From Pirellulales bacterium (GTDB lineage: Bacteria; Planctomycetota; Planctomycetia; Pirellulales; JACPPG01), in contig DASXEJ010000356.1 of assembly GCA_036490175.1 (NCBI GenBank), positions 1-35,081 of the forward strand: a DNA stretch of 35,081 bases, in the 5' to 3' direction. Below the pieces are notes generated by a model that did no database searches, was not told the DNA's origin, and worked only from the letters and a program-made list of their open reading frames with translations. Each line of letters begins with the position of its first letter. The first letter of the stretch is position 1. This document shows positions 7,381 through 11,553 of the stretch, piece by piece. A program made the translations under genes and the position numbers.

Positions 7381-8775
7381 ATGACTCAACTGACTCTTAA
7401 AGAACTCGAACAAATCCTGGTCGCCGACCGCGTCGTCGGCGGTCCGATTGACCGTCCCACTTTACGACTCGATCACGTACGCATCGACAGCCGAGAAGTT
7501 CATCACGGGGATATCTTCTGGGCGCTTCGTGGCAAGCACCATCATGGCGCCGCTTTCGTCGCCGATGCCTTTGATCAGGGTGCAGCCGGCGCGATTGTGG
7601 ACGTGCCAAACATCGAGGCTCCCCCCGGACGCTGGGTCATGCAAGTGGAAGACACCACACAGGCGCTACAACGTGCCGCCGATTGGCAACGCAGTTGCTT
7701 TACGGGCCGAGTGATCGCCGTGACAGGTAGCGCCGGCAAGACGACGACCCGGCAAATGATCGACAAAGTGCTCAGCAGCCGCTTCACCGGTACGGCTAGT
7801 CCGGAAAACTACAACAACCACTTGGGCGTCCCCCTCTCGATACTCCGCTGGCAAGAGTCCGACGCCTATGCCGTGTTAGAGATGGGCGCAAGTGCCCGCG
7901 GCGAGATTGCCGAGTTGTGTCGCCTGGCCCGCCCGAGCCTTGGCGTAATCACGAATATCGGCACGGCCCACCTGGGCAGCTTCGGCGGCCCGGCGGCGAT
8001 CGCGCAAGCGAAAGGCGAGTTGCTCGAGGCTCTGCCGCCCGACGGTTTGGCCGTGCTCAATGGCGACGACCGTCAGCTACGTCGCATTGCCGAACGTTCG
8101 CGGGCCGTGGTGGAATGGTGCGGGCGCAGCGGGGACTGCGACGTAATGGCCACAGACGTCCGCAGCGCGGACGGGCACTTACAGTTCGTCGTCGATCATC
8201 AACACTTCAGCATTCCAGTGTGGGGCCGACATCATCTGACAAGCGCCTTGGCGGCAGTGGCTGTCGGAAGAGCTTTCGGTATGTCGGTTTCCGAGATCAG
8301 CCAGGCCCTGTCCGATTTCGAGCCGCCGCCGATGCGTTGCGAGGTGAGCACATTCGGCGCGGCGCGCGTGATCAACGATGCCTACAATTCCAACCCTATC
8401 GCCATGCGGGCCGCGCTCGAAGTCCTCCGCGAAGATCCCTCGATGGGACAGCGGATCGTGGTCTGCGGCGATATGCGGGACCTGGGAAACGACGCGCCGC
8501 GATTGCACCGCCAAACCGGGGACGAGGTCGTAACCGTTTGCGGCGCCGACCTGCTCGTCGCTTGTGGCGAACATGCAAACGACATGGTCGCCGGCGCCGT
8601 GGCAGCGGGCATGCCATCGCAACGAACCATTGCTTGTCGAAACACGGAAGATGTCGAACCGGTGCTCGCCAAAATCGTAGGGCCCGGCGACGTCGTCTTG
8701 GTTAAAGGCTCTCGAGCCATGAATATGGAACGCCTGCTGGACCGATTCCGGCCACCAGCGCGGCGGGCTGCCTAA
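7381..8775 (+). CDS. murF: UDP-MurNAc-tripeptide--D-alanyl-D-alanine ligase
   Basis: MurF joins D-Ala-D-Ala, the product of Ddl encoded downstream, to UDP-MurNAc-tripeptide. It is 464 residues with an N-terminal MurF-type substrate domain (IDSREVHHGDIFWALRG). The ATP loop is GSAGKTTT at 116-123, the central domain includes ENYNNHLGVPLS, and the NDAYNSNP motif is diagnostic of MurF. It ends VLVKGSRAMNMERLLD, as usual for the family. The start is ATG 7381, 24 nt after murE. It is followed not by the next gene but by a 385-base non-coding stretch rich in long stems (see 8841-9069). Confidence 0.97.
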   Translation: MTQLTLKELEQILVADRVVGGPIDRPTLRLDHVRIDSREVHHGDIFWALRGKHHHGAAFVADAFDQGAAGAIVDVPNIEAPPGRWVMQVEDTTQALQRAADWQRSCFTGRVIAVTGSAGKTTTRQMIDKVLSSRFTGTASPENYNNHLGVPLSILRWQESDAYAVLEMGASARGEIAELCRLARPSLGVITNIGTAHLGSFGGPAAIAQAKGELLEALPPDGLAVLNGDDRQLRRIAERSRAVVEWCGRSGDCDVMATDVRSADGHLQFVVDHQHFSIPVWGRHHLTSALAAVAVGRAFGMSVSEISQALSDFEPPPMRCEVSTFGAARVINDAYNSNPIAMRAALEVLREDPSMGQRIVVCGDMRDLGNDAPRLHRQTGDEVVTVCGADLLVACGEHANDMVAGAVAAGMPSQRTIACRNTEDVEPVLAKIVGPGDVVLVKGSRAMNMERLLDRFRPPARRAA

Positions 8776-8840
8776 GCGGGTAGTGCGAATCGATATCCGT
8801 CACGTCTTTGTAATCACAACGAAACACTTCAAATAGTTGC

Positions 8841-9069
8841 AAGCTCCATCGTAAGTGCGTTGGTTTGCGGGAACCTGCGCGCTGCCCACTCTCCTGGGTA
8901 GGAGCATTTAACTTGTTGGAATCAGCGGTTACTGGGTCAACCGCTCCGACAAGTGCTTCGCGATGGAGCTTATTACTGAGCGCCGGAGCGGCTGCGAGCC
9001 GCTCCGGCTGCTCAGGGAACACCAATCGACACCGGTCGCGGCAAAAACAGGCCCGGCCGGTGTCGGTTG
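8841..9069 (+). ncRNA. Candidate structured RNA element between murF and mraY
   Basis: This lies in a 385-base gap (8776-9160) inside an otherwise tightly packed operon. Stems read directly from the sequence: an 11-bp perfect closing stem (8841-8851 with 8961-8971) encloses three hairpins. These are 8854-8865/8872-8883 (one mismatch, two wobbles, 6-nt loop), 8891-8895/8900-8904 (GGGT loop), and a bipartite hairpin 8911-8919/8946-8954 plus 8924-8930/8939-8945 with a 4-nt bulge. Then come an 18-bp hairpin (8976-8993 with 8997-9015, one bulged base, GCG loop) and a 13-bp stem (9023-9035 with 9057-9069, one wobble). None is followed by a U-tract, so they are not terminators. I recognise no known riboswitch or RNA class. 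It could be a leader controlling mraY, an RNA processing site, or a folded repeat/MITE-like insertion. The strand is inferred from the operon. Confidence 0.55.
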
Positions 9070-9160
9070 CGTTGAGAGGAGACCTGATTCTCGCGCCTTC
9101 GGGCCAGGTCGACGCGATTCGTTCCTGTCGACCCCCATGCTCGCCAGCGCCAGGTCCTCT

Positions 9161-10294
9161 ATGTTCGAGTGGTTCTTCAATTATCTCGCTTGCGGCCCGT
9201 TGTTCGGCGCGACACCGTTCGCAACATCGCCGCTCGACTTGGGTTTTCGCAGCATCGCCGCGGGCGCGCTCGCCATGATCCTTGTTCTGCTGGGCGGTCC
9301 AGCGGGCATTCGTTGGCTCAAGGCGCGTTTTTGCGATCCGCTGAAAAGCGGCTCAGCAGAGCTCGACCGGTTGCACCGCGCAAAAAACGCGACGCCCACG
9401 CTGGGCGGAATCTTGATCGTGGCCGTGGTAACAGTCATCGCCCTGTCGCTGACCGATTTTGTGAATCGCCTGGTGCTGTTGGCACTGGCGAGCACGGTCG
9501 GCCTGGCGCTGGTCGGCGTGATCGATGATCTCGTGAAACTGCGCACGCGCGCCGCCGGCCTCGGCTGGAAGGCAAAGCTGTTGGGCCAGTGCCTCGTGGC
9601 GGCTATTCCCGCCAGTTGCTTCTTCGGCGGCTGGTGTACGCCGTCCCCGATGATTCTGTCGCCGGTCGCTAGCAACGTTCTCATTGCGATGCCGTTGGTG
9701 ACAATCCCCTGGACGATGTTGGTAATCGTCGCCACTTCGAACGCCGTCAATCTAACCGACGGGCTCGATGGACTGGCCGCTGGTTGCCTTGCCCTGGTCG
9801 CCGCGGCGATGGGCGTGGTGGCCTATGTTGGCGCAGAAGGTCCTGCACGGGAACTCGTTGTCGTCACCGCGGCACTTGTGGGCGGCTTGCTGGGTTTCTT
9901 GCGATTCAATCGGCACCCGGCCCAGGTCTTTATGGGCAACGTGGGATCGGTGTCGCTCGGCGGATTGTTGGGCTTTCTCGCTGTGGCCACAGGCACCGAG
10001 CTATTGCTGCCGCTCGTAGGCGCCATACTTGTCGCGGAAACCGCCAGCGTGATTCTGCAGGTCGGAATGTTTCGACTCAAACGGCGGCGGATTTTTCTTT
10101 GTGCCCCGCTGCACCACCATTTCGAGTTTTTGGGCTGGCCCGAGCCGATGATCGTGCGCCGTTTCTGGGTCGTAACCGCCGTGTCCGCCACGATCGGCGT
10201 GGGCGCAGCGCTGGGCGGCCTGGCAACAAGCAGGCCAAGCCCGGCTGCGCCATCGACACTCGTTGCTGCCGGCGATGCGGCACTGCCGAGATGA
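9161..10294 (+). CDS. mraY: Phospho-MurNAc-pentapeptide transferase (MraY), with Asn at a catalytic Asp position
   Basis: MraY moves phospho-MurNAc-pentapeptide onto undecaprenyl phosphate to make lipid I at the inner membrane. The 377-residue protein shows about ten hydrophobic helices. Family motifs seen: RAKNATPTLGG (73-83), the Mg-binding pair D122-D123 (VGVIDDLVK), SNAVNLTDGLDGLA (193-206), and PLHHHFEFLGWPEP (317-329). In the third catalytic motif, VFMGDxGS in other MraY proteins, the sequence is VFMGNVGS, so N260 replaces the aspartate; the codon is AAC. I chose ATG 9161 (MFEWFFNYL), with AGG 6 nt upstream; ATG 9137 would add 8 residues. The stop overlaps the murG start as ATGA. Confidence 0.95.
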   Translation: MFEWFFNYLACGPLFGATPFATSPLDLGFRSIAAGALAMILVLLGGPAGIRWLKARFCDPLKSGSAELDRLHRAKNATPTLGGILIVAVVTVIALSLTDFVNRLVLLALASTVGLALVGVIDDLVKLRTRAAGLGWKAKLLGQCLVAAIPASCFFGGWCTPSPMILSPVASNVLIAMPLVTIPWTMLVIVATSNAVNLTDGLDGLAAGCLALVAAAMGVVAYVGAEGPARELVVVTAALVGGLLGFLRFNRHPAQVFMGNVGSVSLGGLLGFLAVATGTELLLPLVGAILVAETASVILQVGMFRLKRRRIFLCAPLHHHFEFLGWPEPMIVRRFWVVTAVSATIGVGAALGGLATSRPSPAAPSTLVAAGDAALPR

Positions 10295-11553
10295 TTATGC
10301 CGTCTAGCCAAGAATACGTGCCACATATCGTCTTCGCCGGAGGGGTGACTGGAGGTCACCTTTTTCCAGGGTTGGCGATTGCCGAGCAGCTGGCTGCGAC
10401 AAGACCAGGAGTACGCATCACTTTCCTCGGAGCTGGCACGGCCTTCGACCGCACCTACGTCGCAAGGGCCGGTCACCGTTACGTCCACATCGACTGCCCA
10501 CGGTCGCCTCGCCAGGTACTGGAAACCGCCAAGTTTGGCTATCGGATGCTGCGCGGGTTTCGCGCGGCAACAGACTTCTTACGTAGCCAGCGTGCGTCGC
10601 TGGTAGTTGGGCTGGGCGGTTTCGCCAGTCTGCCCACCGGACTGGCGGCGGCGCGCCTCAAGCTGCCCCTGGTACTACTTGAACAGAATATGATCGTCGG
10701 TCGGGCCAATCGACGACTCGCTGCGTGGGCCCACGCGTTGTGCCTGAGCTTCGAGGACACACGCTGGTCGCCAGCTCACGCCGGAATTCCCGCTCGATAT
10801 CCCACGGTCGTAACGGGTACGCCAGTTCGCAGGCGTTTCTTGCAAGTCGCCAACGACCACAGAAAAGTTGCCAAGCGGCAGCAACTTTCTGGCGACAACA
10901 TGCCGTCGGAGCGCACTTTTGATTCGGAAAAGCCGATCCTGCTCGTGTTGGGTGGCAGCGGCGGCGCACGGCTGTTGAATCAAACTATGCCAGCGGTCGT
11001 CACCGCCCTGCGCGACAAGTTGCAGCACTGGCAGATTGTGCATCAAACAGGCCCTGGCCAAGTGGCGATGACGCGGGCCGCCTATGCGTCGGCGAGAATT
11101 GCCGCCACGGTCGAACCGTTTTTCGACGACGTGCCCACGTTGCTGGCCCGAGCGCGATTCGTGGTCTGCCGACCGGGAGGGTCGACTTTGGCTGAGCTCT
11201 CGGCGCTCGGTGTTCCTGCCATCCTGATCCCCTTTGCCGCAGCTACCGACGATCACCAACGACACAATGCCCTGGCCTTCGCGGCCGCGGGAGGGGCCGT
11301 CGTGGTTGATTCCGACAACCGGGAACCAGCCGCACTGACTGAGCAGCTGGCCCGCGCAATCCGCGAACTGATCGCGAATCCTGGGCGGTGTCTGGCGATG
11401 GCCGAGGCCCTCGAATGCCTATCGCACCCCCACGCGGCCCGGCATATAAGCGAAATCGTCAGGCAATTCTCCGGAAAACTTGCCCGCATTAACGACCAAC
11501 AATCACCAGCCCCCCCTGCCCCTCCACCTTACATTGACTCTCGGGCGGCCTGA
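10291..11553 (+). CDS. murG: UDP-GlcNAc:lipid I N-acetylglucosaminyltransferase
   Basis: MurG is a GT-B glycosyltransferase at the inner face of the membrane that converts lipid I to lipid II. The N-terminal glycine-rich loop is AGGVTGGHLFPGLAIAEQL (16-34), with Val in place of the usual Gly in GGGTGGH. Other motifs are VVGLGGFASLP (105-115), LEQN (130-133), LVLGGSGGARLLNQ (218-231), and the UDP-GlcNAc region CRPGGSTLAELSALGVPAI (293-311) with E302. At 420 residues it is longer than typical MurG (about 355-380). The excess is a charged linker near 187-213 and a Pro-rich C-terminal tail. The ATG overlaps the mraY stop (ATGA), so the two are probably translationally coupled. murD and ftsW, usual between these genes, are missing. 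Confidence 0.95.
   Translation: MIMPSSQEYVPHIVFAGGVTGGHLFPGLAIAEQLAATRPGVRITFLGAGTAFDRTYVARAGHRYVHIDCPRSPRQVLETAKFGYRMLRGFRAATDFLRSQRASLVVGLGGFASLPTGLAAARLKLPLVLLEQNMIVGRANRRLAAWAHALCLSFEDTRWSPAHAGIPARYPTVVTGTPVRRRFLQVANDHRKVAKRQQLSGDNMPSERTFDSEKPILLVLGGSGGARLLNQTMPAVVTALRDKLQHWQIVHQTGPGQVAMTRAAYASARIAATVEPFFDDVPTLLARARFVVCRPGGSTLAELSALGVPAILIPFAAATDDHQRHNALAFAAAGGAVVVDSDNREPAALTEQLARAIRELIANPGRCLAMAEALECLSHPHAARHISEIVRQFSGKLARINDQQSPAPPAPPPYIDSRAA

Follow-up and report, generated by a model that had tools for sequence, protein, structure and literature searches.

A single-copy structured RNA next to murF in Pirellulales is most probably an orphan noncoding RNA gene

Comparative analysis strongly supports the presence of a multi-branched structured RNA of no known class in the gap between murF and mraY of the analyzed window, a stretch of 35,081 nucleotides from a Pirellulales bacterium. 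With high probability, the element is an orphan structured noncoding RNA gene that occurs in one copy per genome, had its ancestral place between murF and mraY, and probably acts in trans. Comparison among loci and genomes shows its fold, strand, single copy, long retention, and independence from mraY and the mur genes. In lineages where the RNA has been relocated, the comparison also shows a predicted sigma70-type promoter of its own in front and a predicted intrinsic terminator behind.

Fold, strand and conserved loops

The murF–mraY gap spans 385 nt (8776–9160; murF ends at 8775 and mraY starts at 9161), the length given in a previous sequence-only reading of this DNA. Its minimum free energy is −191.6 kcal/mol compared with a mean of −141.7 kcal/mol for shuffled sequences (z = −10.3; 0 of 100 shuffles as low), and the folding-energy check proposed in that reading thus places the gap far below the controls. 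Using MraY as the query, the equivalent gap was collected from related genomes, and apart from the window, 15 loci had the same RNA in their murF–mraY gap. The resulting 16 loci, window included, were aligned by sequence with MAFFT (alignment A1). Whole genomes were searched with a covariance model (R1) and with a broader one (R2), and 86 members were fitted to the model structure (alignment A3). The conserved RNA (8838–9021) comprises a four-way junction, which stem P1 closes and from which the arms P2, P3, and P4 extend, and a separate 3′ hairpin, P5. The features of the locus are as follows.

8838–9021, + strand: conserved noncoding RNA, core of covariance models R1 and R2 (cmsearch 200 bits with R1 and 187 bits with R2; 86-sequence covariation; z −10.3)
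8841–8971, + strand: four-way junction closed by P1, with both-side changes in 10/10 P1 consensus pairs and 99% of cells paired
8841–8852/8960–8971, + strand: P1, 12 bp
8854–8883, + strand: P2 arm (8854–8866/8871–8883), with the near-invariant apical sequence TTTGCGGGAA at 8864–8873
8884–8899, + strand: P3 arm (8884–8888/8895–8899), with a C/U-rich loop and both-side changes in 4/4 pairs
8901–8959, + strand: P4 arm, with the apical loop ACTGGGTC at 8931–8938
8901–8905/8955–8959, 8911–8920/8945–8954, and 8925–8930/8939–8944, + strand: P4 stems
8976–9021, + strand: P5 hairpin and tail, with both-side changes in 17/17 pairs
8976–8993/8997–9015, + strand: P5 stem, 18 bp with one bulge; basal CTGAG/CTCAG conserved; tail GGGAACA
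9023–9069, + strand: genus-level hairpin, an inverted repeat whose stem is also present in L117 and L119 and which stands where other lineages have an intrinsic terminator, but lacks a U-tract here
7381–8775, + strand: murF, the conserved upstream neighbor (Pfam Mur_ligase_M, Mur_ligase_C)
9161–10294, + strand: mraY, the variable downstream neighbor (Pfam PF00953, Glycos_transf_4; context tally)

The layout recognized in the sequence-only reading is retained with one change, and its 18-bp hairpin with one bulge corresponds to P5 (8976–8993/8997–9015). The change concerns the small hairpin with a GGGT loop (8896–8899; CTCCT/AGGAG): as an alternative fold, it could form in only 21 of the 86 relatives, compared with 81 that keep the pairing GGAGC/GCTTC at the base of P4. 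Because of this difference in comparative pairing, P3 and the long P4 arm are favored over the CTCCT-GGGT-AGGAG hairpin. The absence of U-tracts from the stems was correctly described for the window.

In A1, 32 of the 60 consensus pairs show changes on both sides and 96.6% of the cells are paired; none of 500 shuffles scored as high. In A3, which, unlike A1, was fitted to the model structure and leans pair counts towards it, pairing is kept with both-side changes in 58 of the 60 pairs, compared with 40.5 in column shuffles. The cells with both-side changes number 885 in A3 versus 194 in shuffles, 96.3% of the cells are paired, and slid controls are all far lower. Both alignments thus reveal the compensatory changes in relatives by which the original proposal was to be judged. 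Since G-U pairs far exceed A-C mismatches among the 86 members (580 versus 35), the strand of the RNA is that of murF. A coding sequence was considered and rejected, as the length of the element varies by single bases between relatives; in the ORF list of the window, an in-frame extension of mraY reaches up to ATG 8963.

The letters of two apical loops are conserved throughout. UGGGUC of the P4 apical loop is present in 86 of 86 members and in 20 of 20 further class-level sequences, and each letter of GCGG at the apex of P2 occurs in 84–86 of the 86 members in A3. This pattern suggests a conserved partner, either protein or RNA, with contacts at the P2 and P4 loops. Just 5′ of P1, an A-rich motif of the form ACAAACCATT is found in most mur-adjacent loci and could be a processing or protein-binding site.

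The P3 loop behaves differently. CCUCCU is the anti-Shine-Dalgarno tail of 16S rRNA, and the usual P3 loop, UCCCUCCU, resembles this 3′ tail. The element might therefore act in trans as a base-pairing sRNA, with the C-rich CCUCCU loop of P3 paired to the ribosome-binding sites of target mRNAs, and loops of this type indeed occur through most of the order and in class families f112 and f115. We consider this unlikely, because family f21 does not retain the loop, in contrast to the two invariant G-rich loops, and because the P3 loop of the window itself reads CTCTCC.

Distribution, gene neighborhood and transcription signals

The element is present in a single copy in its own genome, which was the outcome of the copy search suggested earlier. 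R1 matched 172 of 296 genomes of the order and R2 matched 234 of 297 near-complete genomes of the order (apparently Pirellulales), filtered for completeness, with exactly one match per positive genome in either search. At the class level, 115 of 248 genomes had an R2 match, again one each, and the distribution reached families f21, f112, f113, and f115. The phylum sample outside the class gave one marginal match (E 0.004), and a negative control of 72 mraY loci, mostly from other bacteria, gave none. As no copy was detected by R2 in families f8 and f6 of the order and in some genera, the RNA is not universal in the order.

These counts refute the folded mobile repeat that the sequence-only reading had named as its alternative: there is one copy per genome, inherited with murF/murE. 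P5 is the only part with look-alikes elsewhere in the genome, and these are weak and partial; a mobile or dispersed repeat is practically untenable given exactly one full copy in every positive genome, the conserved position after murF/murE, and the compensatory evolution of the stems.

Gene context was tallied for 88 loci, a few of them duplicate entries from one genome. In at least 65, the gene immediately upstream is murE or murF on the same strand, and this mur ligase, typically 20–170 nt away, is the most constant neighbor. The downstream gene is mraY in 19 loci, murG in 14, murB in 2, and another gene or none identified in 53; in many loci it is unrelated, far off, or antiparallel. The order murE-murF-RNA-mraY recurs in class family f21, and the murF–mraY slot is therefore probably ancestral. 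The neighbors other than mur genes share no family (FliG, SDR, GFO/IDH, TPR, LRR, DHH, FHA, HrpB, UvrA-like, and others). In eight RNA-positive genomes from f112, f113, and f115, the MurF query found no Mur ligase at E 0.001, a search that very distant ligases would escape. Because the RNA is kept where mur neighbors or Mur ligase matches are absent, its use does not depend on peptidoglycan precursor genes nearby.

Two observations concern the flanking sequences. In the murF–RNA spacer of L034, a long inverted repeat, AAAAGGTGCC-GGCACCTTTT, occurs twice and resembles a dispersed palindromic repeat. When window positions 9161–11553 are compared with L005 and L006, identity drops steeply right after the RNA: within the genus, MurF is 84–92% identical, MraY 50–63%, and MurG about 51%, and MraY differs strongly between all members. 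The mraY and murG genes seem to be unusually fast-evolving or exchanged in this genus.

Promoters and terminators were compared between 26 loci without mur neighbors and the mur-adjacent loci, among which we grouped L128, L130, L141, L155, and L184, where the mur gene is on the other side or the choice of ORF is unclear. The custom scan required a TTGACA-like element (at least 5/6), a 16–18-nt spacer, and a −10 element starting with TA (at least 3/6), so that TATTTA-type sites, without the obligatory T at position 6, were admitted; shuffled sequences served as controls. Sigma70-type promoter-like sites are located upstream of the RNA in 13 of the 26 loci without mur neighbors (1.25 expected from shuffles), several of the 13 being close relatives of one genus, and in 2 of 81 mur-adjacent loci (3.6 expected). 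TTGACA is perfect in L209, L241, L243, and L250. An intrinsic terminator lies within about 100 nt on the 3′ side in 21 of the 26 loci without mur neighbors versus 25 of 80 mur-adjacent loci, with a rate of 6.6% in shuffled sequence; the terminator stem of L171 is bulged. Neither a recognizable promoter nor a U-tract terminator behind the RNA is present in the window and its lineage. A simple reading is that the RNA is either part of the mur transcript or an independent unit, and that the window would represent the first of these two modes.

A segment reading CGTATTTACTCCCCCGTCGC or GCTATTTATTGCCCCGC is conserved about 45 nt before P1 in two genera (L171, L173, L175, L180, L186, L196 and L161, L177, L182, L183). 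The folds of L171 and L161 contain an extra 5′ hairpin after this segment.

Context and transcription signals together bear on two cis-acting explanations. The sequence-only reading had proposed a leader that sets mraY-murG expression. A cis-regulatory leader of this kind, whether a riboswitch or a protein-binding element, would agree with the gene order in the window, where mraY follows the RNA, and in those of the 88 loci that have mraY (19) or murG or murB (16 more) on the downstream side, and the conserved loops of the RNA are aptamer-like. With regard to switch-type signals, the window is devoid of a U-tract terminator, and the alternative CTCCT/AGGAG hairpin can form in 21 of 86 members. 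We nevertheless regard a leader as quite improbable, and the proposal was not sustained: mraY follows the RNA in 19 of the 88 loci, most loci have a downstream gene that is unrelated, distant, or antiparallel, the spacing to mraY is variable, and terminators follow the RNA. Moreover, the RNA is kept where the MurF query finds no Mur ligase, and many such loci have their own promoter and terminator. The constancy of the upstream mur ligase, typically 20–170 nt away, could instead point to a 3′ UTR element that stabilizes or terminates the murE/murF mRNA. This is distinctly improbable as well, since it would leave unexplained both that the RNA is retained next to unrelated genes with a promoter of its own and that loop letters are invariant across the class.

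Proposed mode of action of the RNA

The preferred reading is thus that of an independent noncoding RNA. In the lineage of the window, the RNA would be transcribed within the murE-murF-(mraY-murG) operon, freed by processing at the A-rich junction that precedes P1, protected at its ends by P1 and P5, and would act in trans after release. The four-way junction may hold out the UUUGCGGGAA loop of P2 and the CUGGGUC loop of P4 to a conserved partner, either protein or RNA. A protein, and hence a ribonucleoprotein, appears somewhat likelier than base-pairing with mRNA, because the invariant letters lie in the two G-rich loops and some lineages do not retain the CCUCCU loop. In the window lineage, a purely cis role between murF and mraY is possible, since that lineage has no recognizable promoter or U-tract terminator. 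We tentatively propose, as a plausible but far from secure model built from comparison, that the element is an uncatalogued core ribonucleoprotein RNA of planctomycetes, in which the junction presents two invariant G-rich loops and which alternates between operon-processed and own-promoter forms.

Relation to known RNA families

No Rfam 15 family matched the window or 13 diverse member loci at gathering thresholds, in agreement with the earlier statement that no known riboswitch class is recognizable, and relaxed thresholds gave chance-level matches only (E 2.6–4.2). Literature searches returned no description of this RNA in planctomycetes. OLE and GOLLD are orphan structured noncoding RNA classes and, like the element, conserved structured RNAs found by comparison with no function assigned. 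No sequence or structure that they share with the element is recognized, and the element has no Rfam match. The mraW motif is a leader RNA linked to the mur/dcw genes and, like the element, a structured RNA inside a peptidoglycan gene cluster. In contrast to mraW-type leaders, the element is tied to its upstream gene, is kept without mur genes, and is often followed by a terminator.

In a 2010 listing (Weinberg et al., PMC2864571), the Rhodopirellula-1 motif is given for Proteobacteria and Planctomycetes and is marked as cis-regulatory and as an uncertain RNA. It is likewise a candidate structured RNA in Planctomycetes; set beside the element on the description in that listing alone, it may be identical with it. 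We filed the element as a new family among orphan structured noncoding RNAs.

Catalogs of noncoding RNAs are thin beyond model bacteria: in a survey of Rfam, the entire PVC group accounts for 8 distinct sRNAs (PMC9029176). An RNA kept in one copy in most of an order and several class families, with over 50 covarying pairs, has a conservation comparable to that of known housekeeping RNAs. Its survival after the loss of neighboring peptidoglycan genes makes a cell-wall-independent function directly testable, and the covariance model permits its annotation in hundreds of genomes.

The single copy, the size of about 180 nt, and the strong structure would also suit a diverged version of one of the known housekeeping RNAs (6S, SRP, tmRNA, or RNase P). 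This is highly improbable, because neither the window nor the 13 divergent members match Rfam, the four-way junction is unlike the folds of these four RNAs, and 6S RNA was found at another locus in carriers of the element (G013, G036, and G037). In addition, RNase P, SRP, and tmRNA are already assigned in Thermogutta terrifontis, the annotation of which lists these RNAs by Rfam, three riboswitches elsewhere, and nothing of the element's kind (PMC5673643). This species presumably carries the RNA, at about 681557–681745 of its chromosome. Where PMC5673643 cites a survey of 6S RNA, Pirellula and Rhodopirellula are given as lacking it.

6S RNA (RF00013) resembles the element in being single-copy, independently acting, structured, and about 180–190 nt long, but it forms a long hairpin with a central bubble, whereas the element has a four-way junction with a 3′ hairpin and lies at a separate locus. 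As a candidate identity, 6S RNA was rejected: RF00013 and the element are on separate contigs in G013 (C95 versus C53), G036 (C160 versus C14), and G037 (C115 versus C68). The 6S matches above the Rfam cut-off in these three genomes of the order are G013:C95:5993-6185, G036:C160:1497-1689, and G037:C115:4679-4877.
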